A stretch of DNA of 64,000 bases from Axinella damicornis. Its lineage: Eukaryota; Porifera; Demospongiae; Axinellida; Axinellidae. The notes beneath the pieces are model-generated. The model did not search any database and was not told the origin of the DNA. It saw only the letters and a program-made list of their open reading frames with translations. This document shows positions 15,683-43,985 of the stretch, in pieces. The position numbers and the translations under genes were made by a program. Location: NCBI GenBank assembly GCA_963931865.1, contig OZ007513.1, forward strand, positions 558,001 through 622,000. Direction: 5' to 3'. Each line of letters opens with the position of its first letter. Within the stretch, counting starts at the first letter, position 1.

Positions 15683-17914
15683 TCAGCTTGAATGTTCAAA
15701 CTTCTGCAGCTGCAAATAGAGAGCGACATTGAGATGGCCGTTGGCTATAGCGTACTCATGAGGTGTCATATTACGTTTATTTCTCAAGTTGGGAGGACAC
15801 TTCAGCTCCTCAACAAAGAACTGAACTACTTGTAGGTGGCCATTCTCTGCTGCATAGTGGAGAGGAGTGTCGTTTGAAACTGCTTGTGGGTTGGGATTGC
15901 AATGCTTTTCCAGTGAAAGGAATTTCACAATGTCTAAATGTCCGTTGTCTGCAGCACAATGAAGTGGTGTCACTTTGTCTCTATCCAAACATGATGGATC
16001 ACAACCTTGTTCATCAATCAAATACTTCACTATGTGCAGGTGACCATTCTCAGCAGCAAGGTGAAGAGGGGTTCTGCCATACTGGCCTGGAATGTTCGGA
16101 CTACAATTCTGATCAGTGATGAAGAATTTGAGTACGTCCAAATGGCCCCCCTGAGCTGCCCTTGTGATGGTAGTGTTACCATCGGAATCTCTAGATGTTG
16201 GATTGCAGTGATGTTCTAGTGTAAGGAATTTCACAATGTCTAAATGTCCGTTGTCTGCAGCACGATGAAGTGGTGTCACTTTGTCTCTATCAAAACATGA
16301 TGGATCACAACCTTGTTCATCAATCAAATACTTCACTATGTGCAGGTGACCTGTCTCAGCAGCGGCGTGAAGAGAGGTTCTACCATACTGGCCTGGAATG
16401 TTCGGACTACAGTTCTGATCAGTGATGAAGAATTTGAGTATGTCTAAATGGCCATGCTGAACTGCCCCTGTGATGGAAGTGCTACCATCGGAATTTCTAG
16501 ATGTTGGATTGCAGTGATGTTCCAGTGTAAGGAATTTCACAATGTCTAAATGTCCATTGCTTGCAGCACTATGAAGTGGTGTCACTTTGTCTCTATCCAA
16601 ACATGATGGATCACAACCTTGTTCATCAATCAAATACTTCACTATGTGCAGGTGACCATTCTCAGCAGCATGGTGAAGAGGGGTTCTGCCATACTGGCCT
16701 GGAATGTTCGGACTACAGTTCTGATCAGTGATGAAGAATTTGAGTATGTCCAAATGGCCCCTCTCAGCTGCCCATGTGATGGGAGTGTTGCCATGGGAAT
16801 CTCTAGATGTTGGATTGCAGTGATGTTCCAGTGTAAGGAATTTCACAATGTCTAAATGTCCACTGTATGCAGCAAGATGAAGTGGTGTCACTTTGTCTCT
16901 ATCCAAACATGATGGATCACAACCTTGTTCATCAATCAAATACTTCACTATGTGCAGGTGACCTCCTGCAGCGGCAGAGTGAAGAGGGGTTCTGCCATAC
17001 TGGCCTGGAATGTTCGGACTACAGTTCTGATCAGTGATGAAGAATTTGAGTATGTCCAAATGGCCCCCCTCAGCTGCCCCTGTGATGGGAGTGTTACCAT
17101 AGGAATCTCTAGATGTTGGATTGCAGTGATGTTCCAGTGTAAAGAATTTCACAATGTCTAAATGTCCATTGTCTGCAGCACGATCAAGTGGTGTCAGTTT
17201 GTGTCTATCCAAACATGATGGATCACAAGCTTGTTCATCAATCAAATACTTCACTACGTGCAGGTGACCTCTCTCAGCAGCATGGTGAAGAGGGGTTCTG
17301 CCATACTGGCCTGGAATGTTCGGACTACAGTTCTTGTCTGAAATGAAGAATTTAACAATGTTCAAGCGACCACCAAGCACTGCATAGTGTAGAGGATTGT
17401 TTTCAAACTTGTCTTTCAGATCAGCAAGAATGTCCTTCATTGGATTGTATTTCTCAATCTCCTCACTCAGAAATGTAACAATGCTGAGATCACCTACACA
17501 ACTGTGGTGCAGTGGAGTCCTTCCATCCTCATCCTGACACAGAGGGTCTACCTGCTGCTCAATAACGAGGTACTTGACGACATCAAGGTGAGCTTTAACA
17601 CTAGCGAGATGAAGTGGTGTTCTCCCATGATAACCTGGACATGCAGGGTTGCAGTTTTTCTCACTGATGAAATACTTGAGCACGTCCAAACTCCCTCCCA
17701 GTGCAGCTGCGTGAAGAGCAGTGTCTCCTCTCTCATCTTTCTGAAGTGGGCTTTCGTGTTTCTCCTCTGTAAGTAGCCTGACAGTCTCAAGGTCCCCTCT
17801 CTGTGCAGCACGGTGCAGTTCAGTTGTTCTGTGGTGTCCACTGGATGCCTCAGATGGTGACTGATGGATATGAAGTGTGTACTCAAATTCCTCCAGTTCT
17901 TTATACAAAGGGTC
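15683..17914 (-). CDS. Ankyrin-repeat protein, copy A (5' exon(s) uncertain)
   Basis: A single open exon of 743 codons starts at a CAG acceptor (reading DPLYKELEEFEYTLH) and ends with TGA at 15683. It consists almost entirely of ankyrin repeats of about 33-34 residues (GRTPLHHAAERGHLHVVKYL type). They are organised as a higher-order unit of three repeats (102 residues, 306 bp), each containing NCSPNIPGQYGR, CDPSCLDR and CNPTSR segments; five such units are present. No catalytic, transmembrane or Death domain is visible, so a binding or scaffold role is likely, partner unknown. There is no ATG at the start of this exon. A 28-nt exon near 17960-17990 reading CVIDGVRIE would join in phase, so the true start lies further upstream. 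The gene is convergent with the RhoGEF. Confidence 0.75.
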   Translation of the reverse strand, partial: DPLYKELEEFEYTLHIHQSPSEASSGHHRTTELHRAAQRGDLETVRLLTEEKHESPLQKDERGDTALHAAALGGSLDVLKYFISEKNCNPACPGYHGRTPLHLASVKAHLDVVKYLVIEQQVDPLCQDEDGRTPLHHSCVGDLSIVTFLSEEIEKYNPMKDILADLKDKFENNPLHYAVLGGRLNIVKFFISDKNCSPNIPGQYGRTPLHHAAERGHLHVVKYLIDEQACDPSCLDRHKLTPLDRAADNGHLDIVKFFTLEHHCNPTSRDSYGNTPITGAAEGGHLDILKFFITDQNCSPNIPGQYGRTPLHSAAAGGHLHIVKYLIDEQGCDPSCLDRDKVTPLHLAAYSGHLDIVKFLTLEHHCNPTSRDSHGNTPITWAAERGHLDILKFFITDQNCSPNIPGQYGRTPLHHAAENGHLHIVKYLIDEQGCDPSCLDRDKVTPLHSAASNGHLDIVKFLTLEHHCNPTSRNSDGSTSITGAVQHGHLDILKFFITDQNCSPNIPGQYGRTSLHAAAETGHLHIVKYLIDEQGCDPSCFDRDKVTPLHRAADNGHLDIVKFLTLEHHCNPTSRDSDGNTTITRAAQGGHLDVLKFFITDQNCSPNIPGQYGRTPLHLAAENGHLHIVKYLIDEQGCDPSCLDRDKVTPLHCAADNGHLDIVKFLSLEKHCNPNPQAVSNDTPLHYAAENGHLQVVQFFVEELKCPPNLRNKRNMTPHEYAIANGHLNVALYLQLQKFEHSS

Positions 17915-19187: not shown

Positions 19188-22100
19188 TCACACAAACTGA
19201 CTGACCTCTTCATCAGTGGCAAATGTGCACATGCTCTTGTCATCCGTGAAGATGCTGCCCCCCATGGCAGAGTCTGTGTCAAAGTCATGCCTCGTCAGTG
19301 CCGGCTGAAACACTGGATCCCTCAGCTCTGCTACAGGTTCTTAAAGGGAAAAGTAAATCATCTCTTGATAATCAGGGGCTTCCCTAAAGTGCACTGAGCC
19401 CCACTACTCCAGTGCTCCACCTCACAACCAACCATAATGTATTGCGTCAAACTAGCCAATTTGTTTTCCTTTTCCTATAGTGTATGACAATAGGGTTTGA
19501 ACCAGCAAGTTCCTTTTCAAATATCATGTAGCTATGCCAAGGCTTGCACATGGGACTAAGGGCAAGTCATCCAGGTTGAGGATGAGTGATGGTATAGTCT
19601 CACAACCACCCTCCAACCACAGGGAGGAAGAGTCTGGTCGCACTGCAACATACGTACCATAGTTGCTGTTCCATGTCCCAAGATCCTGGAATGACGTAAC
19701 CGCAATGGGGGTAGCTGTGCATGTACTAACAACTAAGTTTAGTGGATGCATAACTACACTGTACAAGTAATCACATTCCATGGTAGTGACTGGGTCACAC
19801 TAGTGACTATAACAGTAGCCGCTGCGTGAGACTGATTACACACATACTGATATGAAGTAGTTCTCGTGTATGTGTCTGGTAGATCACAAATTCCATGGTG
19901 ATCACCCATGTTGGGTTTCCCTTGATGGCCACAGGCCTCAATTGAACCTAATTAAGCCCTTCTGATCAGTACTAGCTATTTACGCTCAGCACCATTTTTC
20001 AATGTTTGGCGTGTGCTCAAATAAATCATTCTGGACTCACCAGTGTCTTCCAGTTCAGATTCATCCTCCTTTCCCTGCAGTGACAAGATCACACATAGGT
20101 TGCTATGGTTCAAACAGGAAAAGTTTCTTGTATGTGTGATGAGTGCATGATGACATCATCTTCATTGACAATGGCAATGATGATGATGTCATCATGCACT
20201 CTTCTAGTGTGAAACTTCTGAGGGACAACTTTGTCTTGCAAAGTCTATGGTGGTATTCGAAACCAAAAGCCTGTGTGTAAGAAGCAGTGTATGGTGAAAT
20301 GGGGAGGCACACACCTTGGCAACAAACTCGTAGTTTCCACATGTCAGCTTGATCACTCCCTCTGCCACCAGGGCCCTCTCTTGCTCACTGGACAGAGGAA
20401 ATATCTCTTGTTGCACAAACGAGGGCACCTGGAACATGACCCGGAAACAACCTTCCTCCACTCGACAGAGACGAAGAACACCTTGTGATACATGGAGGAT
20501 TTCTTTAAGCCTGTATCGAAAATTCTCTACTGCTTCCAAAGTGAATTGTTCATACACCGAATCTATCTTCAAACTTAATTCAACATGATCAGCTTCGCTC
20601 ACAGGTCCAAAGACTGGGAGACATTCATACACTCTACGCTTTGAGTAACGGTCAAATTCTTCCTTGTAGTTACGAAGCTCAGCTTTGTCCTGGTCTGTAC
20701 CAAGTTTACTGACAATGTGTTCAATAACGTGATAGTTGAAAAAGGAAAAGTAGTCTCCAATAACCCACAACACCTTCTCAATACTTCCCGCAGTCTGAAG
20801 CTCTTTAAAGAAGGTTTGAAACACTGGCTTCTGAGAACCCTTACTGACAGGGTCAAAGGCACGCAACGACATGAGGTGAGTGACTAACCTGTCCACAGAA
20901 ATGCCTCGCGTACGCAGTGACTCATAGACGGTGGAGAAAAGGTGCTGAAACTTAATCATAATATCCTCCGACTCCACACGCAGCCTGCCTCTGAGTTCTT
21001 GCTGTTGCTCGTGGGTAAGTCGACTGAAATCGAGGCATGGGAACGAGCTAGCTGAGGGGATTGGGTTTGAGCATCCACTCTCAAGATAACTATAGAATGT
21101 GCACTTGCCACACCCACAGCCAAACGGTGGCTTCTGAGATCCCTCACTCTGAGTGGAAGAGCTGGGCCTGGGACTGACACCAGCACCTTCAGAAGTGAAC
21201 ATGTCATCTGATACTGTGCCGCTAGCACACGAGTCTTCTCGAGTTCTGACGGGAGTTTGCTTGGGGGGTTGAGGAGTAGCAGCTGCAATCTCTGCATGAG
21301 GTTAGAGAATAGATTCACCTAGCCTCTTACAGTGGTCCGCACAATGAGTACATGTATATCCATACACTATTGCTGGCATTGCGTAAGCATTGCCGGTATA
21401 ATGATTCTGGACACTCAAAACTTCTGCCATTAACAAATCCCCAAATCAGCTCTATCAAGGGACACTGTTGGTCACCGTGAACTTCACTGAAATGCTTTCT
21501 GTTGTCCTGTGCAACTTCCAGTTTAATGAAATTAAAGTAGCGGGTATAGAGCTGATTAATTCAAGTTTCTATACAGGGACACACTTTGGTGTGCATTGGT
21601 CATTCATAGCTTGAACCAGTTCCAAAAACGAGCCAGAATCACTATCCGACTGATACCTGCATGCTACATGTATCAAGCACACACTGGCAGGAAAATCGCA
21701 TAGTCAGTTGCTCTAAAGAATGTGCACCTGCCACACCCACACCCAAACTATGGCTTCTGAGACCCTCACTCGGAGTGGAAGTGGAAGAGACGGGCCTGGG
21801 ACTGACACTAGCACCTTCATCCGGTACTGTGCTGCTAGCACATGAGTCTTGACTTCTGGTGGACGTTTGTGGAGCAGTACTCCTACTTGTAATCACTGCA
21901 GATAAGAGGTGAGCGGTTGTTTAGTAACTAACGAATATGGGTCAAGCCTGAGCAGACTGAGTTTGACATTGTGCCTGAGATGGAAAATTAACAACTTGAT
22001 TTCACATTCTAGAGTGCTATTGTCACACGATGACACCAACATATAGACAGCCACTAAAATGACCTTGTGGGACTTCCATTACCGCTGTACAACTTCAACA

Positions 22101-25100: not shown

Positions 25101-28100
25101 TAACCCCCCACAAGCCCAGCAATCGGAGGTCAAAGATGGATGTCAGCTGGATTTTCGCCCAGCATTTCCCTAAACTTGGGCCAGATCTGACTGATGGCAC
25201 ACCTTACACCACCAATTTGCAGGTTTTCTTGAGGCCCTGGGTGGGGTCTATGAATATCATTAGAATCAAAAAATTCTCGGGTCAATGAATCTCATTAAAA
25301 TCAACAAACGCCCACGACAGGCCGAAGGGGGGGCTGCCGCCCCCCCTTCGAAACCCCCCCGCTTGTACGTTTAGTGGGGGAGGCGCGCCGAAATCTGACC
25401 AAATTTTTGAGTTTGTGCCTTAAAGTCGTCCCTAGGCCCTCTGAAGACTTTTTGGTCTCTTTTTGGACTGGCGAGAAGCCCTACAAGTGCATAGGGTCTA
25501 AATGACGCCTAGACGTCAATGGGGCTTAAAGGGTTAACTGAACGTCTCTAGTAGTGTACAGTTGCTGTGTATGCAATGTACTGTTTACCACTTCAATTAG
25601 ACTAGTTGTAATGTAACAATTGAGTTATTTGGTTAAGTTCAAAGAGTGATTAGCACTAGACTTCAGACTAATAACCATATTCATGAGGTCACTAAATCAT
25701 TAGTTAGAGACCTGTGGGTAGGTCTCTAACCCAGTTAGAGACCTGATGGTGGTTCCTACACTATACTAGGGGCAAAAAAATTTTCCCCAAAAATTCTAGG
25801 GGATTTAGTGATGGCCTGTCACATTCCATGCACCTCACGAAAAACCTAAGAAACAAGAGGAAATGCCATTAACCAGCCTCAGTCCCATCCCATTTATTTT
25901 TTAAAATGTAGAATTTAGGGATGGGATGGGACTGAGGCTGGTTAATGGCATTTCCTCTTGTTTCTTAGGTTTTTCGTGAGGTGCATGGAATGTGACAGGC
26001 CATCACTAAATCCCCTAGAATTTTGGGGGGGAAATTTTTTGCCCCTAGTTTGTGCACTTTTTTGAGCGCATGAAATGCGTAGCTTATTAGTCATGGTATG
26101 TGCAACATCACCATACGGGACAGGCATTGGGTACAGGGGTACTGGATGTAGCTATGCCCTAATGTCAGATTTTAAGGTGTTGTTACATGTACCTAATCAC
26201 CATGTCAGCAAAGGAAAGCTATGACAGTCTCTCATGATGGCAGTGATGGATGTGGACCTTCTGCTGAACATTGAGCAGGCTTAATTTGTTGCTTCCATTA
26301 ATAATATTGTTGTACGCATGTTGCTCTTGTCATCAGCTAGCTACAAGTCTTTGGGAGGTGGTGGGCATTCACCCTTCATCAGATCAGAGAGCTTGATGGC
26401 AGTCATACTTATAGGTCACGTACATGCAATGGCTCCATATAATAGTTTAAAACTCCAGCCTCACTCACAGTTCTGGTCAGTATTGGTACAAGTACAAAGT
26501 TTTGTTCTGCACTGTAGCTACATATGTACGTCATGAAAAAGAAAGCCACGCCCCCATGATGGCACAGCCTAGCCACGATAGATCTTGACAAGAACAGGTG
26601 GGTAGAAATTCCTCTCAGCGGTAGTGAGCCACCAGATGACGGATTGACAAGGATTCAGTAAGTGTCTCAAACGCAGCTATCACAAGCAAAAAGAACACAA
26701 CATGCGCTTGCATTTGAAATGCGCATGCGCAATTGGCAGAACGCGTGACCTAGTACCTCTGGCTGCCTCAAAATGGCGTCGTGCTACAATTTCGTCGAAT
26801 GGTAGCTAACCAAAACTGCTGTTCTTGCCAGTTTGCAGACATACTGACGCAAGGACTCTACTGCGGAGAAAGCGGTGTTGTTCTGTGCTTAAATGAGCTC
26901 AAGGACTCCTTCCGTTGGTGAGCTATGCTTGACTATGAGAAAGAAGAAGAAAGAAGAAAGAAGAAAGAAGATGACGAAATCGGAATTTACAGCGACTTGT
27001 CTCTCGACTCCTGCGTACTCTCAGGTACGTTTAAGAGTGTTTTTGTGAACTGCTAGGCAGTGTCATTCTGTCTGCATGCTTGGTTTGGGCCTTTGTAGCT
27101 TCTTTTGCCGTTTTCCTGCTAGTGCATCAGTATGGTAAATTCGAAATTCCTTGGCCATCCCTAAATAGAGAACGCTATCGCGTTCTCTGATAGGATACTC
27201 ATTAAGGCTACACACATCAAAGCTTGAATATTCAAAAATTTTCTAAGGCAAGATACTGCCATGGCTTCTTACTTTAGCACTTCCTTTTCAAACCCATACT
27301 GATAGTGAATCAGTAGTCTCTCACCTGAGTGTCTTCCTGCAATGGTCATGGCAAGTGCACAGTTGTTCCCAGCTACTGGGCGTGCCACCACTTTCACCAC
27401 CGTTCTCCATGTCGGCTCACCAAACAGCTCTACATCATAGTTCTTCCTCAGCCAGCATGTTAGCACGCCCGACAAACACTCTTCACAATCACCGTGGTTA
27501 TCAGTTTGAATCTGATCCAGACGTCCAGAGTCAATTCGGAACCCTCTGCCAATGGCCTTCCATCTTGCAACGAGTGGTATCATTTCTTCTAGCACATCCA
27601 AGAGATCCTTTTCCCCTGATGGAAGATAACGTTGGAAGGTAATGTTAGAGTAAACTTAGAAGACAATTTTCGTTGACTAACCTAATGGACAATCATCCAC
27701 AGCAAGGAGTGCCTTGTCCACCTGATCCGATCCTGCACAGAGAATAAGAAAGTCGTTGCATGTAGGAATAAGTATTCATTGGGCACAATTCACTGGAATT
27801 TGCATAATTATGTGTACAAAACAACAGTCAAGTTGTGTACCTTCCTTGTCTGTGGGCCCAGGGTTTCTCTCAACGTCTCCTGCCATCAGAAGTAGAGACA
27901 GCACCACCAAACACACTCCGAGCAGCAAGCACACCCCACTGCGCACTCCCGCCATCCCTCTGGCCTCTGTGCTCGGGACAGATTCACCCCTCAATTTGGG
28001 ACAGCGCACCTTGCCACACGCACCGCTCCCCTTTGGACAGCCTCCCCACCTGCGGAACGCATACTCCAGTATCAGCGACAGGGAGACGAACGCCATGCAG

Positions 28101-28252
28101 CCTTGGAGCACTAGAGGGGTGCTATTCACGACCTCCCCGACCCCCCATCTGGCCGCCCTCCACTGGACAGGGAGCGGGCGGCAGGCGTACCGACCATGGC
28201 GGTAGTAGTTGAGCCCAATTCGAGCTCGCCATGTAGCAAGATCGATCCCCAT
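19188..28252 (-). CDS. Death-domain protein with N-terminal membrane segments and 2A-like motif, copy A
   Basis: Seven exons join in phase for 680 residues: 27841-28252, 27682-27732, 27325-27615, 21770-21895, 20315-21291, 20041-20074 and 19188-19339. Exon 1 encodes 137 residues with hydrophobic stretches at about 51-66 and 106-124, then GDVERNPGP at 125-133, which fits the 2A ribosome-skipping consensus D(V/I)ExNPGP. Exons 2-3 encode a Death domain (WKAIGRGFRI, CLSGVLTCWLRKNY, EPTWRTVVKVV, NNCALAMTIAGRH). Exon 5 encodes a 325-residue module (CGCGKCTFYSYLESGC, SFFNYHVIEHIVSKLGT, RVEEGCFRVMFQVPSFVQQ) that I associate with sponge Death-domain proteins; its function is not known to me. Inferred: skipping at G132/P133 would free a cytosolic Death-domain protein from a membrane-anchored leader. 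Exons 6-7 are short and acidic. The terminal exon is least sure. The 5.4-kb intron 3 is full of transposons. Confidence 0.78.
20141..20201. mobile_element. 61-bp palindromic element, GAGTGCATGATGACATCATC type
   Basis: A nearly perfect inverted repeat whose ends read GAGTGCATGATGACATCATC and GATGATGTCATCATGCACTC. Related copies lie near 6787-6847, 42643-42690 and 48888-48925. The homologous intron in copy B lacks it. It carries TGACATCA-like (CRE/AP-1-like) half sites, probably by chance. Confidence 0.55.
22152..23721. mobile_element. 1570-bp TAGCCTCGTTCCCAG-type element with nested insertion
   Basis: The ends are long inverted repeats (about 67 bp) beginning TAGCCTCGTTCCCAGGCCGT. Perfect 9-bp duplications TGAGCTACT flank it at 22143-22151 and 23722-23730. 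Copy B has the unoccupied site near 42434-42441 (CTGAGCTACA). No transposase reading frame is seen, so it is non-autonomous. A second, TA-flanked element sits inside it at 22757-23310. Confidence 0.85.
22757..23310. mobile_element. TA-flanked inverted-repeat element, CCGTAGATC type (nested)
   Basis: The left end CCGTAGATCGGGAAATTTTC and right end GAAAATTTCCGGATCTACGG are inverted copies, each bordered by TA (22755-22756 and 23311-23312). A TA target duplication is typical of the Tc1/mariner/IS630 group, but no transposase is present. The interior holds further TTTTCG-type subrepeats. Confidence 0.7.
23903..24083. mobile_element. Palindromic MITE, GTTAGAGCATG type
   Basis: An inverted repeat of about 180 bp with ends GTTAGAGCATGT and ACATGCTCTAAC. 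The arms share TTTCTTAGCTGTATAGTAA and a central CACTAAATGACC/GGTCATTTAGTG. No coding capacity. Confidence 0.6.
24097..24815 (+). pseudogene. Crypton-like tyrosine recombinase remnant (DUF3504 type)
   Basis: The C-terminal part (24603-24815) reads NHSLRVTSATRLF, DEQLIMTRTGH and GVRAYKRTSDKL. This resembles the C-terminal catalytic block of Crypton/DUF3504 tyrosine recombinases, with the HxxR box (HSLR), the downstream H and the Y nucleophile. The first part (24097-24694) is in another frame and lacks the central catalytic region. The simplest reading is an internally deleted, frameshifted element. Cryptons have no terminal inverted repeats, so its ends cannot be defined here. Confidence 0.65.
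24933..25533. mobile_element. TTAA-flanked non-autonomous element (piggyBac-like)
   Basis: Left end TTAA-CCCTTTAA and right end TTAAAGGG-TTAA form short inverted repeats immediately inside TTAA duplications (24929-24932 and 25534-25537). TTAA target and CCC/GGG termini are the pattern of piggyBac-derived short elements. No transposase frame is visible. Confidence 0.6.
25766..26048. repeat. 283-bp imperfect palindrome
   Basis: The arms, about 125 bp each, begin CTAGGGGCAAAAAAATTTTC and end with its reverse complement, around a short AT-rich centre near 25905. An RNA copy would fold into a long hairpin. The arms are nearly identical, so it is young or maintained. It is probably a foldback-type transposon. 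Confidence 0.7.
26925..27024 (+). CDS. Possible short first coding exon downstream of a promoter-like segment
   Basis: An ATG at 26925 opens a frame rich in Lys/Glu (MLDYEKEEERRKKKEDDE, then IYSDLSLDSC) that ends at a good GTACGT donor. About 140-200 bp upstream are a TGCGCATGCGC palindrome (NRF1-like, near 26721-26731) and AAAATGGCG (YY1-like, near 26771-26779), both common in animal promoters. No downstream exon was identified. It may be a 5' exon left by a mobile element rather than a host gene. Confidence 0.25.
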
Positions 28253-33520: not shown

Positions 33521-34843
33521 TCAGCTTGAATGTTCAAACTTCTGCAGCTGCAAATAGAGAGCGACATTGAGATGGCCGTTGGCTATAGCGTACTGATAAG
33601 GTGTCATATTACGTTTATTTCTCAAGTTGGGAGGACACTTCAGCTCCTCAACAAAGAACTGAACTACTTGTGAGTGGCCATTCTCTGCAGCATGGTGGAG
33701 AGGAGTGTTGTTTGAAACAGTTCGTGGGTTGGGATTGCAATGCTTTTCCAGTGTAAGGAACTTCACAATGTCTAGATTTCCTTGTCTTGCAGCATGATGA
33801 AGTGGTGTCACTTTGTCTCTATCCAAACATGATGGATCACAACCTTGTTCATCAATCAAATACTTCACTATGTGCGGGTGACCTCTGTCAGCAGCATAGT
33901 GAAGAGGGGTTCTGCCATACCGGCCTGGAATGTTCGGACTACAGTTCTGATCAGTGATGAAGAATTTGAGTATGTCCAAATGGCCTCGATGAGCTGCCAC
34001 TGTGATGGGAGTGTTACCATGGGAATTTCTAGATGTTGGATTGCAGTGATGTTCCAGTGTAAGGAATTTCACAATGTCTAAATGTCCATTGTGTGCAGCA
34101 CGATGAAGTGGTGTCTCTTTGCTTCTATCCAAACACGATGGATCACAACCTTGTTCATCAATCAAATACTTCACTATGTGCAGGTGACCTGCTGCAGCAG
34201 CGGAGTGAAGAGGGGTTCTGCCATACTGGCCTCGAATGTTCGGACTACAATTCTTCTTGGAAATGAAGAATTGAACAATGTTCAAGTGACCATAATGGAC
34301 TGCATAGTGTAGAGGATTGAGTTCAAACTTGTTTTTGAGATCAGCAAGAATGTCCTTGATTGGATTGTACTTCTCAATCTCCTCACTCAGAAATGTGACA
34401 ATGCTGAGATCACCTGCTGTACAACTGCAGTGCAGTGGAGTCATTCCATCCTCATCCTGACACAGAGGGTCTACCTGCTGCTCAATAACAAGGTACTTGA
34501 CCACATCAAGGTGACCATTCTCACTGGCGTCATGAAGTGTTGTTCTCCCACGATAACCTGGACATGCAGGGTTGCAGTTTTTTTCACTGATAAAATACCT
34601 GAGCACGTCTAAACTCCCTCCCACTGCAGCTGCATGAAGAGCAGTGTCTCCTCTCTCATCTTTCTCAAGTGGGGTTTCATGTTTCTCCTCTGTGAGTAGC
34701 CTGACAGTCTCAAGGTCCCCTCTCCATGCAGCATGGTGCAGTTCAGTTGTTCTGTGGACCAGGTGTTCACTCGATGCCTCAGATGGTGACTGATGGATAT
34801 GAAGTGTGTACTCAAATTCCTCCAGTTCTTTATACAAAGGGTC
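33521..34843 (-). CDS. Ankyrin-repeat protein, copy B
   Basis: One open exon of 440 codons plus stop, homologous to copy A from its first codon (DPLYKELEEFEYTLHIHQ) to its end (LQLQKFEHSS). It keeps the N-terminal repeats and the C-terminal repeats but has only two of the 102-residue higher-order units instead of five; this explains the length difference of 303 residues almost exactly. The upstream mini-exon of copy A is altered here: its acceptor AG is missing and it carries a 4-nt deletion. Expression would need another 5' exon or start. A 726-bp inverted-repeat element sits about 100 bp upstream. Confidence 0.65.
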   Translation of the reverse strand, partial: DPLYKELEEFEYTLHIHQSPSEASSEHLVHRTTELHHAAWRGDLETVRLLTEEKHETPLEKDERGDTALHAAAVGGSLDVLRYFISEKNCNPACPGYRGRTTLHDASENGHLDVVKYLVIEQQVDPLCQDEDGMTPLHCSCTAGDLSIVTFLSEEIEKYNPIKDILADLKNKFELNPLHYAVHYGHLNIVQFFISKKNCSPNIRGQYGRTPLHSAAAAGHLHIVKYLIDEQGCDPSCLDRSKETPLHRAAHNGHLDIVKFLTLEHHCNPTSRNSHGNTPITVAAHRGHLDILKFFITDQNCSPNIPGRYGRTPLHYAADRGHPHIVKYLIDEQGCDPSCLDRDKVTPLHHAARQGNLDIVKFLTLEKHCNPNPRTVSNNTPLHHAAENGHSQVVQFFVEELKCPPNLRNKRNMTPYQYAIANGHLNVALYLQLQKFEHSS

Positions 34844-39340: not shown

Positions 39341-42300
39341 GATCACTAGACATCCGACATGAAGTGCTAAAGGGGCTGAGTATATAGAAGTATATTACAC
39401 AGAGCACCTGCACCTCGTCTTTGGTATTTATGGACACAAACTCACTGACCTCTTCATCAGTGACGAATGTGCACCTGCTCTTGTCATCCGTCAAGATGCT
39501 ACCCCCCATGGCAGAGTCTACGTCAAAGTCATGCCTCGTCAGTGCCGGCTGAAACACTGGACCCCTCAGCTCTGCTACAGGTTCTTAAAGGGAAAAGCAA
39601 ATCATCTCGTGAGTGAGTGTCACTACTGCAGGTAGCCTCACAACCAAATCTGTCACACAGAGGAAGGGTCTGGTCGTACTGCAACATTCAAAGGTACACT
39701 GTACTGAAGGTGTAACCTACCTACAGAGCTTAGGAATAGCCTGGCATGGTTAGCAACATACTAGTTGTTTCAAGGTCATGGAATGGGTTGAATGTGTGGG
39801 ATGGTTTCTTGTGCTTGTAATAACTGCATTGTATAAAAGTCACATTCCACAGTAGTAGCCTGGTCACAGCCAGGCTTCCTCTCTGTACTAAGGGGTGTGG
39901 CTTTCAAGACTACCCCACTTCTTAATTATAATGAGAGCATCATTCTACTTTTCAGTGATAATGACATTGTGCTCAATAAATCAAGTACGTCATTCTGGAC
40001 TGACCAGTGTCTTCTGATTCAGACTCACCCTCCTCTCCCTGTAGTGGCAAGATCACACTATGTCATAACATAATTATTCATATGTTGCAGTGTACTGTGA
40101 GATGAGTCAGTACCATGATGTCAGATAATTGGCACGCACCTTGGCAACAAACTCATAGTTTCCACATGTCAGCTTGATCACTCCCTCTGCTACCAGGGCC
40201 CCCTCTTGCTCACTGGACAGAGGAAATATCTCTTGCTGCACAAACAAGGGCACCTGGAACGTGAGCTGGAAACAGCCTTCCTCCACTTGACAGAGACGAA
40301 GAACGCCTTGTGATACATGAAGGATTCCATTAAGCCTGTATTGAAAATTCTTCACTGCCTCCAGAGTGAATTGCTCGTACACTGAATCGATCTTCAAAAC
40401 TAACTTAACATGGTTGGGTTCGCTCACAGGTCCAAAGACTGGGAGACATTCAAAAACTCTACGCTTTGAGTAGCGGTCAAATTCTTCCTTGTAGTTACGA
40501 AGCTCAGCTTTGTCCTGGTCTGTACCAAGTTTACTGACAATGTGTTCGATAACGTGATAGTTGAAAAAGGAAAAGTTGTCTCTTATAACAAACAACACCT
40601 TCTCAATACTTCCCGCATTCTGAAGTTTTTCACTGAACATTTGAAACACTGGTTTCTGAGAACCCTCATAGACAGGGTCGAATGCACCCCATGACAAGAG
40701 GTGAGTGACTAGCTTGTCCACAGGAATGCTCTGTGCACACAGTGACTCGTAGACGGTGGAGAAGAGGTGCTGGAATTTGATCATAATATCCTCTGACTCC
40801 ACACGCAGCCTGCTCTGCAGTCCTTGCCGTTGCTCGTGGGTAAGTCCACCGAAATCAAGGCATGGGAATGAGCTAGCTGAGGGGATTGGGTTTGGGCACC
40901 CACTCTCAATATAACTATAGAATGTGCACTTGCCACACCCACACCCAAACGGTGGCTTCTGAGATCCCTCACTCTGAGTGGAAGAGCTGGGCCTGGGACT
41001 GACACCAGCACCTTCAGAGGTGAACACATCATCTGATACTGTGCTGCTAGCACATGAGTCTTCTCGACTTCTGATGGGAGTTTGCTTGGAAGGTTGAGGA
41101 GTAGCAGCTGCAATCTCTGAATGTGTTTAGAGAATAGATTCATTCTGACAGCAGCACTGGATGAGGAGAGATGGATATGAATCTACCCAGCCCAACCAAC
41201 AATGAGGTACTATACATGTGTAACTCAATGTTATATCCATACACTACTGCACATGCATCCTCAACTGTATAATGATTCTGGGCACTCAAAATCTTCTGGC
41301 AAATCAGCCGTTACCAAATTCCCTTATTCAGCTCTATCAACAGAAACTGTTGGTCACTGTGAACTGCATAAATTATAGATGCTTTCAGTACATGTTAAGA
41401 ACAGCTGATATTTAGATATCGATTCTACATAAAGAGCAACCATTGGGGCACTGTGGTGCACATTGGTCATTCTCATAGCTCGAACCAGTTCCAAGAACAA
41501 CCTGTTTCTTTCAAAACATCAGAATCGCAATCACTGATATCTGCATGCTACCAAGCACACACTGGCAGGGAATTTACTATGTGTATATAGTCGTGCAGCT
41601 GAGGGGGTGGAGTTCATGTAGTTGCTCTAAAGACAGGCTCGACACACCCACACCGTAGTGGTGTTTTCTGAGATCCCTCACCCTGAGTGGGGGTGTAGGT
41701 GGGCCTGGGACTGACACTAGCACCTTCATCCGGCACTGCACTGCTGGAGTCTTGACTTCTGGTGGACATTCGTGTAGCAGCTCCTGTAATCACTGTAAAT
41801 AAGAGATGAGCTGTTTAGTAACAAACAAAATGCTGTGTATATATATGATTGAGCTGAGGATTATTATTGTGCTGGTGTGAGTTTGATCTCTAAACTAATG
41901 CAAGTACTTTGCGATCTTGTCCATGCGATTTGTGACAATGCTTTTTGCGATCCTAGCCACACGCTCAGCTATTACGGTTGTACTGCCGCTTTTTGCGCTC
42001 ATTCACTTCGCAATGCCCATTGCCCATTGCACTGACTATGCAACTTCCCAGTGAGGACACTACAATCTGTGGACGCCTAGGTTCGTTCCCAGGCCTCCAC
42101 CCAGATTTAATCTCGTAGCTGTGGAGAATTTCCACGGCTATGAGATAAAATCTGGGCGGAGGCCCGGGAATGAGCCTACAGACCTCCTTTGCTCTTGTTG
42201 TGATACACAAGGCTGCGAAAATGTCCATTACTTCCTGGTCACCATGGCAACTTCCTGGTCACCATGGCAACTTCCTTCACTGCTGCAGGGACAGCTCGCT

Positions 42301-43985
42301 AACATGTTCATCTAATTCATTAATTTATTTTCAATGAGTGTAAGCACTCACAAGCATAACGGTGTACTAAAATAGAGTTGCTCTCATGCACCTAGTAGGG
42401 CCTCCATTCCTGCTGAATAAGGCTCATTTTGCTTTTCCCTGAGCTACACATGTACTTGATTGAGATATTGTTAACAAAGTTATAGGTTCATGATTATACT
42501 GATGATGGCAACTTCAGCAAGTGTGGGAAATTTATTGGTAACTCTTCTACTTCTCAGGCCAATATACCCTGACTGAGACAAAGACAGTGAGATGGCTACT
42601 ATGAACTGCTATTCAAACCCATATATAATGATAGCAAACATGAGCACATGGTGACATCATCGTCATTGTGACAATAATGTTATGACGCGACTCCTCCCTG
42701 GATCCACTACACTAATTTGTTACCTGAGTGTCTTCCTGCAATGCTCGTGGCAAGTGCACAGTTGCTCCCAGCTGCAGAATCTCCCACCACTTTCACCACC
42801 GCTCGCCACGTCGGCTCACCAAACCGCTCCGTATTGTAGTTTCTCCTCAGCCAGTGCTTCAGCATCGCAGACATACAGTCCCGGGGATTGCGATTATGTG
42901 CTGCTTCGATTTCATCCAGTGCTCCAAGACTGAGTCGGAGTCCTTCACCAATGGCCTTCCAACCAGCAACAGCTGGCATCAACTCTTTCAGTAAGTCAAA
43001 GAAATCGTCTTCTCCTGTTGGAAGAGAATGACGAAAAGAACTTATAAAGACTCACTATATTCAATCTTTCTGACTAACCTAATGGAGAATCGTCCACACC
43101 AGGGAGCATCTTATCCACCTCATCTGATCCTACACACAGAATAAGGAATCAAGTCATAGTGCGTAACTAGATAATTCATTGTATTCATTTGGCAGTAATT
43201 TGCCTAAGAATGACAGGAATTTGCAATGAATTCATTATGTGAACAAAACAACACACGAGCAGCCATTTTGTCTTTTTTTAGTAATATTTAGATACCACTT
43301 TGCCGTGCATTACGGGTTTTAGTGCACGAGGGCAATCTAGTTAACGGTCGAGGGCGAGATAATGCACGAGCCGAAGGCGAGTGCATTATCCGCCCGAGAC
43401 CGTTAACTAGATTGCCCGAGTGCACTAAAGCCCGTAATGCACTGCAAACTGGTATCTAAACTACTTAGTGCAACTCATCGACCCGAGACAGCCTTTGATC
43501 TTTGAAAAGTGTGAGGGTCACGTGAGTAGCACTAATTTTATTTAAAGTCATTCTATCAGGAAAGTAGCCATACCTTCCTTCCCTGTGGGCCCAGGGTTTC
43601 TCTCAACATCTCCTGCCATCAGAAGTAGAGACAGCACCACCAAACACACTCCGAGCAGTAAGCACACCCCACTGCCCACACCCACCGTCCCTCTGGCCTC
43701 ATTGCTCGGGACAGATCCACCACCCAACTTGGGACAGCGCACCTTGCCACACCCACTCCTCCCCTTTGGACAGCCTCCCCACCTGCGGAACGCATACTCC
43801 AGTATCAGCGACAGGGAGACGAACGCCATGCAGCCTTGGAACACTAGAGGGGTACTATTCACAACCTCTCCGACCCCCCATCTGACCGCCCTCCACTGGA
43901 CAGGGAGCGGGCGGCAGGCGTACCGACCACGGCGGCAGTAGTTTTGCCCAATTCGAGCTCTCCACGTAGCGAGATCGATCTCCAT
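39264..43985 (-). CDS. Death-domain protein with N-terminal membrane segments and 2A-like motif, copy B
   Basis: The exons mirror copy A: 43574-43985, 43079-43129, 42724-43014, 41682-41792, 40140-41116, 40005-40038 and 39264-39583, all in phase (about 731 residues if the last exon is unspliced). Exon 1 keeps the hydrophobic stretches and GDVERNPGP. The Death domain (WKAIGEGLRL, CMSAMLKHWLRRNY, EPTWRAVVKVV) and the long exon 5 module are intact but clearly diverged from A, by many substitutions. In copy A the last exon stops at EEVSQFV; here the frame runs on about 57 codons, unless a GTGAGT near 39447 is a donor. The gene shares a 129-bp divergent spacer with RSPH14. Both copies open and diverged suggests both are used (inference). 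Confidence 0.76.
42078..42178. mobile_element. About 100-bp TAGGTTCGTTCCCAGGC hairpin element
   Basis: An inverted repeat with family-type ends and a GGCCTCC/GGAGGCC arm. Flanking duplications are degenerate (GTGGACGCC versus CAGACCTCC), so this is an older insertion. Confidence 0.55.
43289..43458. mobile_element. 170-bp palindromic MITE in intron 1 of Death-domain gene B
   Basis: Ends TAGATACCA and TGGTATCTA. The arms share GTGCATTACGGG, AGTGCACGAGGGCAATCTAG and AACGGTC with their complements. Absent from the homologous intron of copy A. Confidence 0.65.

Follow-up and report, generated by a model that had tools for sequence, protein, structure and literature searches.

The first exon of a minus-strand gene in a 64,000-nucleotide stretch of the genome of the sponge Axinella damicornis (assembly GCA_963931865.1, contig OZ007513.1, forward-strand positions 558,001 to 622,000; hereafter the window) encodes a putative membrane leader that ends in the 2A (StopGo) octapeptide DVERNPGP. 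This gene (copy A) and its tandem neighbor (copy B) continue into a Death domain, a TRADD-N-like domain, and ankyrin repeats. We think it probable that the leader is a working 2A element at the head of an immune-receptor-type gene of this Death/TRADD-N-like/ankyrin class, under either a near-complete or a partial skipping regime.

The 2A leader and selection on its core

In copy A, the ATG-started frame of exon 1 ended in SGVCLLLGVCLVVLSLLLMAG-DVERNPGP-TDKE, with GDVERNPGP continuous with the second of two hydrophobic stretches of the leader, as an earlier note on this DNA had described, and with the four codons after the core followed by one base and a phase-1 GT donor. The residues directly before the core (CLVVLSLLLMAG) were leucine-rich and hydrophobic, and DVERNPGP, which fits the D(V/I)ExNPGP octapeptide of 2A/StopGo elements, was present in both copies. 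Core codons D126–P133 occupied positions 27877–27854 of the minus strand, and skipping there would split off a 132-residue leader and make Pro133 the first residue of the following product; the residue count thus bears out the two product boundaries that the earlier note had proposed. At the level of sequence, the DVERNPGP that follows this hydrophobic block is confirmed as a genuine 2A core. The features of the exon, with hydropathy from 19-residue Kyte-Doolittle windows, are as follows.

27841..28252, minus strand: exon 1 of copy A, with ATG, 132-residue leader, 2A core, and phase-1 GT donor
28055..28123, minus strand: first hydrophobic stretch, residues 44–66, a candidate signal anchor (Kyte-Doolittle maximum 1.70, from residue 44 of the leader)
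27878..27940, minus strand: second hydrophobic stretch, residues 105–125, adjoining the 2A core (Kyte-Doolittle maximum 2.86, from residue 106 or 107)
27854..27877, minus strand: 2A core DVERNPGP, residues 126–133, with Gly132/Pro133 as the predicted unformed bond

First, the core was the most constrained part of the leader within the sponge genome. The leader gave 23 genomic matches, which we read as 20 loci; NPGP was present at 19 of these and the leader was uninterrupted at 15. A Death exon lay within the 1.5 kb of downstream sequence covered at 17/20 loci, and an exon-5 domain lay within 15 kb at 16 of the 19 tested. After exclusion of the one uninterrupted copy that had an internal deletion, the ratio of nonsynonymous to synonymous differences (pN/pS) among the other 14 was 0.04 for codons 126–133 (pS 0.289, pN 0.012) and 0.43 for residues 1–133 (pS 0.236, pN 0.103), and the lowest pN values among 126 eight-codon windows of the leader came from those starting at 124, 125, and 126. 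Seven of the eight core codons varied in DNA, with a single residue change, from R to L, at the free x position. The 2A core is selected as a peptide and not as DNA, the contrast being large even though the pairs compared are not independent.

Second, the core was conserved in homologs, which the earlier note had proposed as a check. A search of 5.8 billion public proteins returned 480 leader homologs, and D[VI]ExNPGP was kept in 113 of the 120 listed, the window's own leader included. Two of the other seven were truncated, two read DVERHPGP, and one each read DVARNPGP, DVERNSGP, or ended in NPDP; a variant with histidine at p16, as in DVERHPGP, is credited with more than 95% activity in PMC12846837. 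Among 131 eight-column windows of the leader alignment, the six with lowest entropy started at 120–122 and 124–126, covering the core together with the residues immediately preceding it, and the seventh started at residue 8. Leucine columns 118 and 120–122 were conserved at 97–99% in the 120 listed homologs, and M1, D4, W8, and R11 were invariant in those aligned.

The leader start as a whole (residues 1–11, MGIDxATWRxR) was nearly invariant among the listed homologs, with G2 in 118/119. We take this start to fit an N-myristoylation pattern; the copy B leader has Glu at position 2.

Gene models and domain identity

Complete eight-exon models with canonical GT-AG sites were obtained for copy A (1420 amino acids, with the stop at 15683) and copy B (1110 amino acids, spanning 43985 to 33521 on the minus strand), with exon phases 1,1,1,1,0,1,0 common to the two. 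The encoded order was leader, core, Death domain, Ser/Pro-rich linker, exon-5 domain, two small exons, and ankyrin repeats. In copy A the splice path ran in frame from exon 1 through the 51-base exon 2 to the Death exon, which supports the junction between leader and Death domain drawn in the earlier note. The note's framing was too narrow: the gene extends into exon-5 and ankyrin parts and belongs to the genome-wide set of 2A sites described below. The remaining exons are listed here.

27682..27732, minus strand: exon 2 of copy A, 51 bases, phase 1 to phase 1
27325..27615, minus strand: exon 3 of copy A, Death domain (four homologs exceed the Pfam cut-off)
21764..21895, minus strand: exon 4 of copy A, Ser/Pro-rich linker with a block conserved in copy B
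20315..21291, minus strand: exon 5 of copy A, a helical part and a beta-alpha-beta-beta-alpha-beta (ferredoxin/TRADD-N-like) part
20041..20074, minus strand: exon 6 of copy A
19206..19339, minus strand: exon 7 of copy A
15683..17914, minus strand: exon 8 of copy A, ankyrin repeats and stop
43574..43985, minus strand: exon 1 of copy B, leader and 2A core (core codons 43610–43587)
43079..43129, minus strand: exon 2 of copy B
42724..43014, minus strand: exon 3 of copy B, Death domain
41682..41792, minus strand: exon 4 of copy B, linker
40140..41116, minus strand: exon 5 of copy B
40005..40038, minus strand: exon 6 of copy B
39450..39583, minus strand: exon 7 of copy B
33521..34843, minus strand: exon 8 of copy B, stop and ankyrin repeats, the latter assigned through ~91% DNA identity to exon 8 of copy A

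Against the Pfam Death profile, copies A and B scored 16.0 bits (E=0.014) and 20.1 bits (E=7e-4), below the 22.6-bit cut-off; homologs P0019, P0032, P0053, and P0066 scored above it (23.2–25.8 bits), and homologs P0012 and P0048 scored below. A sequence search of the PDB with the Death exon gave one weak match, to Fas (E 0.65). Likeness of exon 5 to TRADD-N was weak: the exon had no Pfam match in copy A and no PDB match by sequence search, and Foldseek gave no match at E<=0.001, the absence of TRADD among the matches listed excluding nothing. In the homolog P0012 (550 amino acids, on a 3.4-kb contig), a single open frame, which apparently reads through an intron, contained leader, core, Death domain, and exon-5 domain.

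Public protein P0010 contained an exon-5 homolog with a repeated GVNPGP linker and without a 2A core. At about 9.4–10.0 Mb of C13, paralogs had Death and exon-5 domains with no match to the window's leader, and no 2A core occurred there among the 206 genome places listed; these are possible leaderless comparison genes.

Between copies A and B, the ratio of nonsynonymous to synonymous divergence (dN/dS) was below 1 in all seven segments compared (0.29 to 0.63). Synonymous divergence was uneven (dS 0.12 for the leader, 0.71 for the Death exon, 0.24 for exon 5, and 0.10 for the ankyrin exon), and the copies are therefore mosaics, through either exchange of the Death exon or homogenization of the leader and ankyrin exons. 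Beside both Death genes, in antisense, the plus strand carried duplicated 3' ends of another gene (12.7–15.0 kb and 30.1–32.4 kb), which include an SH3-like end and a BAR domain, the latter identified by Pfam in the second copy.

2A sites across the genome

Third, 2A cores occurred throughout the genome in a directional association with Death-type exons. Exact matches to the core pattern numbered 209, compared to 1 for a reversed control pattern and a chance expectation of ~0.4 in 226 Mb (both strands, equal bases), which rules out chance occurrence. Two tandem arrays (11 and 25 places) were excluded and 3 places were not listed, which left 170 located sites. For 161 of these, a Death-type exon lay within 3 kb downstream on the same strand at 87, with none upstream or antisense; at 10 kb the same-strand counts were 100 downstream and 10 upstream and the antisense counts 1 downstream and 2 upstream, against a random-place expectation of 1.7 for which the sizes of some contigs were guessed. 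Exon-5 domains were found downstream versus upstream of 44 and 1 sites at 5 kb, and of 52 and 15 (plus 2 antisense) at 12 kb. NACHT domains lay within 10 kb downstream on the same strand at 15/161 sites and upstream at 3; none of the 103 NACHT places found in the genome fell within 0.1–10.4 Mb of C9, where copies A and B lie.

With the other nine sites included, a Death exon was downstream of 88 (3 kb) or 104 (10 kb) of the 170, and 126/170 had a Death (10 kb), exon-5, or NACHT (12 kb) domain downstream on the same strand, some of which may belong to a neighboring gene, since the control was less clean beyond 3 kb. The Death queries came from the window and from 2A-linked loci, with hits accepted down to E 1e-3 and 150 candidates scored per search. 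Because of the source of these queries and of tandem clusters, the raw numbers do not represent independent observations, and comparison by direction and strand is the fair control. Of 980 candidate places for canonical Pfam Death domains, 150 were scored, and these lay within 15 kb on the same strand downstream of only 4 and upstream of 1 of 164 2A sites, and the coupling is thus to particular Death subtypes.

Several leader types, apparently unrelated to one another, seem to carry these cores. Each of the 19 leaders listed had at its end a hydrophobic block, in most cases rich in leucine or methionine, and then the core; a GT-type phase-1 donor lay 2–20 bases past the 23-base pattern in 16 and was found in none of the other three, and a phase-1 acceptor was available at the Death exon in 5/6 loci examined. 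In short-query BLAST comparisons of 20 leaders, some grouped into families and little was shared between families beyond the hydrophobic end, so 'unrelated' here means no clear similarity past that end in these 20 examples. The L060/L062 family has WRARIG near its start, in common with the window's leader; a Death exon lay 5.6 kb (L060) or 2.7 kb (L062) downstream, with a NACHT domain 10.3 kb downstream of L060. Homologs of the L062 leader kept the core in 104/106 cases, the other two reading NPGL and NVETNPGP.

Two arrays stood apart from these located sites. At C1:5419195–5425713 (minus strand; L024–L034), 11 2A exons stood in tandem with a usual spacing of about 690 bases. They were followed by a tail of the ISGERKH type, similar to the one in the C10 leaders L060 and L062, and possibly form a cluster of alternative first exons. 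Outside the window, C6:9399531–9404022 (minus strand) contained 25 exact cores with 128- or about 255-base spacing in a minisatellite-like array, which is not a simple polyprotein because 128 is not a multiple of three. Simple polyprotein use was also rejected for copies A and B, where the core is N-terminal.

Non-long-terminal-repeat (non-LTR) retrotransposons bearing 2A are known. At least two of the remaining 44/170 sites were retrotransposon-like: in L047 (C2:11824404) and L052 (C3:8721678), the reading frame of the 2A core continued into PHD-type and endonuclease-type sequence, and by eye we judge them to be like open reading frames (ORFs) of non-LTR elements.

Proposed skipping, alternatives, and relation to known 2A leaders

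Some sea-urchin NLRs bear N-terminal 2A signal sequences, and for one of these skipping and dual targeting were found with reporters in mammalian and plant cells; about 35% (85/241) of the NLRs of that species have 2A, 14/87 in an NCBI set have a 26-residue form at the very N terminus, changes in the leucine-rich tract of a sea-urchin 2A lowered its activity, and a joined reporter with the sea-urchin leader entered the exocytic pathway (PMC4981915). By analogy with that leader, most ribosomes on copy A would fail to join Gly132 to Pro133, the leader would come off as a membrane peptide in its own right, and synthesis would continue with a Pro-started, free cytosolic Death/ankyrin protein. The remaining ribosomes would form the Gly132–Pro133 bond, giving a receptor form that the leader holds at the membrane. 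If both stretches span it and the N terminus lies inside, this tethered form would also expose its Death and ankyrin parts to the cytosol, and the choice would then be between tethered and free protein, not between secreted and cytosolic protein. Given the length of the exit tunnel, the second span would still be inside the ribosome with Gly132 in the P site and the first span already out, so recognition of the first span could act before 2A does. Translocation of some upstream sequences into the endoplasmic reticulum (ER) can reportedly inhibit 2A in some constructs (PMC2978324); together with the early emergence of the first span, this means that targeting could bias the ratio of skipped to joined product.

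One version of the working-leader reading is constitutive skipping, in which nearly all ribosomes skip, the tethered form is negligible, and a membrane peptide and a Pro-started Death protein are made in fixed ratio. It is favored by the canonical core in its leucine-rich context, by the invariant M1, D4, W8, and R11 far from the core, as expected for a leader with its own job, and by the roughly 80% skipping of the sea-urchin leader in vitro (PMC4981915); the inhibition of 2A by ER translocation speaks against it, and sequence cannot separate constitutive from partial skipping. We judge constitutive skipping quite possible, at somewhat below even probability. As it is a sub-case of the working leader, whose likelihood covers either regime, the two estimates do not add.

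Several observations weigh against a working leader that gives tethered and free forms. The splice sites of the gene models are predictions, and leader topology was guessed from hydropathy, with the N-terminal flank and the loop both positively charged. Five of the 20 leader loci are broken, indicating that part of the family is decaying, and 5/120 listed homologs have a core that is altered without known activity or are truncated before it. A fully efficient 2A, moreover, would leave no tethered form.

The altered cores and the two hydrophobic stretches would also suit an ordinary signal anchor, in which NPGP no longer skips and the protein is always membrane-bound. This alternative is unlikely: no part of the leader is more constrained than the core, which changes among 14 copies only at the tolerated position, and the other leaders share little besides the hydrophobic end and the core. 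L047 and L052, which place a 2A core with PHD-type and endonuclease-type sequence in the same genome, raise the alternative that the leader was exonized from a non-LTR retrotransposon and that its 2A is a fossil. The elements and the leaders have the same core, but the genes here continue into a Death exon and not a PHD-type/endonuclease-type ORF, and the sequence upstream of the core in L047 and L052 had no obvious likeness to the leaders by eye, without alignment; derivation from these two ORFs was rejected on that basis. Selection on the core and its coupling to Death exons oppose the fossil claim, which we consider quite improbable, although an element origin is compatible with present function. 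Finally, the broken loci might indicate a wrong junction, with exon 1 belonging to another transcript or a pseudogene, but the Death exons and exon-5 domains that accompany most leader loci and the single open frame of P0012 make this very unlikely.

The leader resembles that of sea-urchin NLRs in that D(V/I)ExNPGP closes a hydrophobic block at the N terminus, and in its occurrence in a class with N-terminal Death-type domains. The earlier note had regarded the layout as undescribed, which does not hold, given the published N-terminal 2A leaders with dual targeting of sea-urchin NLRs (PMC4981915); the kind is thus not new. The sea-urchin leader, however, is a signal-peptide-like sequence of 26 residues on NACHT-LRR proteins, with one leader tested for skipping, whereas the leader here has 132 residues, two hydrophobic stretches, and its own phase-1-donor exon, and heads Death/exon-5/ankyrin genes, with skipping predicted from sequence. 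By the NACHT search above, copies A and B are not among the NACHT proteins that carry the SpNLR2A type. Viral 2A/StopGo elements share the canonical octapeptide and leucine-rich upstream stretch (PMC12846837) but separate parts of a polyprotein, whereas here 2A is an N-terminal feature of a host gene; cellular use of 2A is called rare in the same source. Amphimedon Death-like/TRADD-N/variable C-terminus proteins often have ankyrin repeats and form a large lineage-specific expansion (PMC8195603), and the genes here are like them in having an N-terminal Death-like domain, a TRADD-N-like domain (a weak match here), and then ankyrin repeats.

The text of the Amphimedon paper (PMC8195603) has no mention of NPGP, 2A-like sequences, 2A peptides, ribosome skipping, or signal peptides, and the parts consulted of a demosponge NLR survey (PMC12909245) have none of NPGP, skipping, or signal peptides. 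In the first 300,000 characters of PMC5009743, 2A-like, sponge, and NPGP all occur, unconnected. Among the papers listed in literature searches, judged by title and start of abstract, none describes such leaders for Death-domain genes of sponges; a survey of eukaryotic and viral 2A sequences (Rao et al. 2025) may include cases. The apparently new elements are the gene class (Death/TRADD-N-like/ankyrin), a long leader with two spans, how many leaders there are, and the scale.

More tentatively, 2A skipping might be a general head module of Death-domain immune receptors, with unrelated membrane leaders on phase-1 exons shuffled onto Death/TRADD-N-like/ankyrin and Death/NACHT genes, and with each receptor made as a tethered and a free pool in a ratio set on the ribosome, perhaps by ER engagement of the first leader span. 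We regard this reading, taken whole, as possible and on balance doubtful.

In one animal genome, 2A is coupled to more than 100 sites of Death/NACHT type, the leaders being of several kinds, and selection at the level of the octapeptide is shown for the leader family of the window. Seen alongside the sea-urchin NLRs, the pattern suggests that the connection of 2A leaders to innate-immune receptors of animals is either deep or was invented repeatedly, and it offers a testable way in which one messenger could give rise to membrane-bound and free receptor pools.

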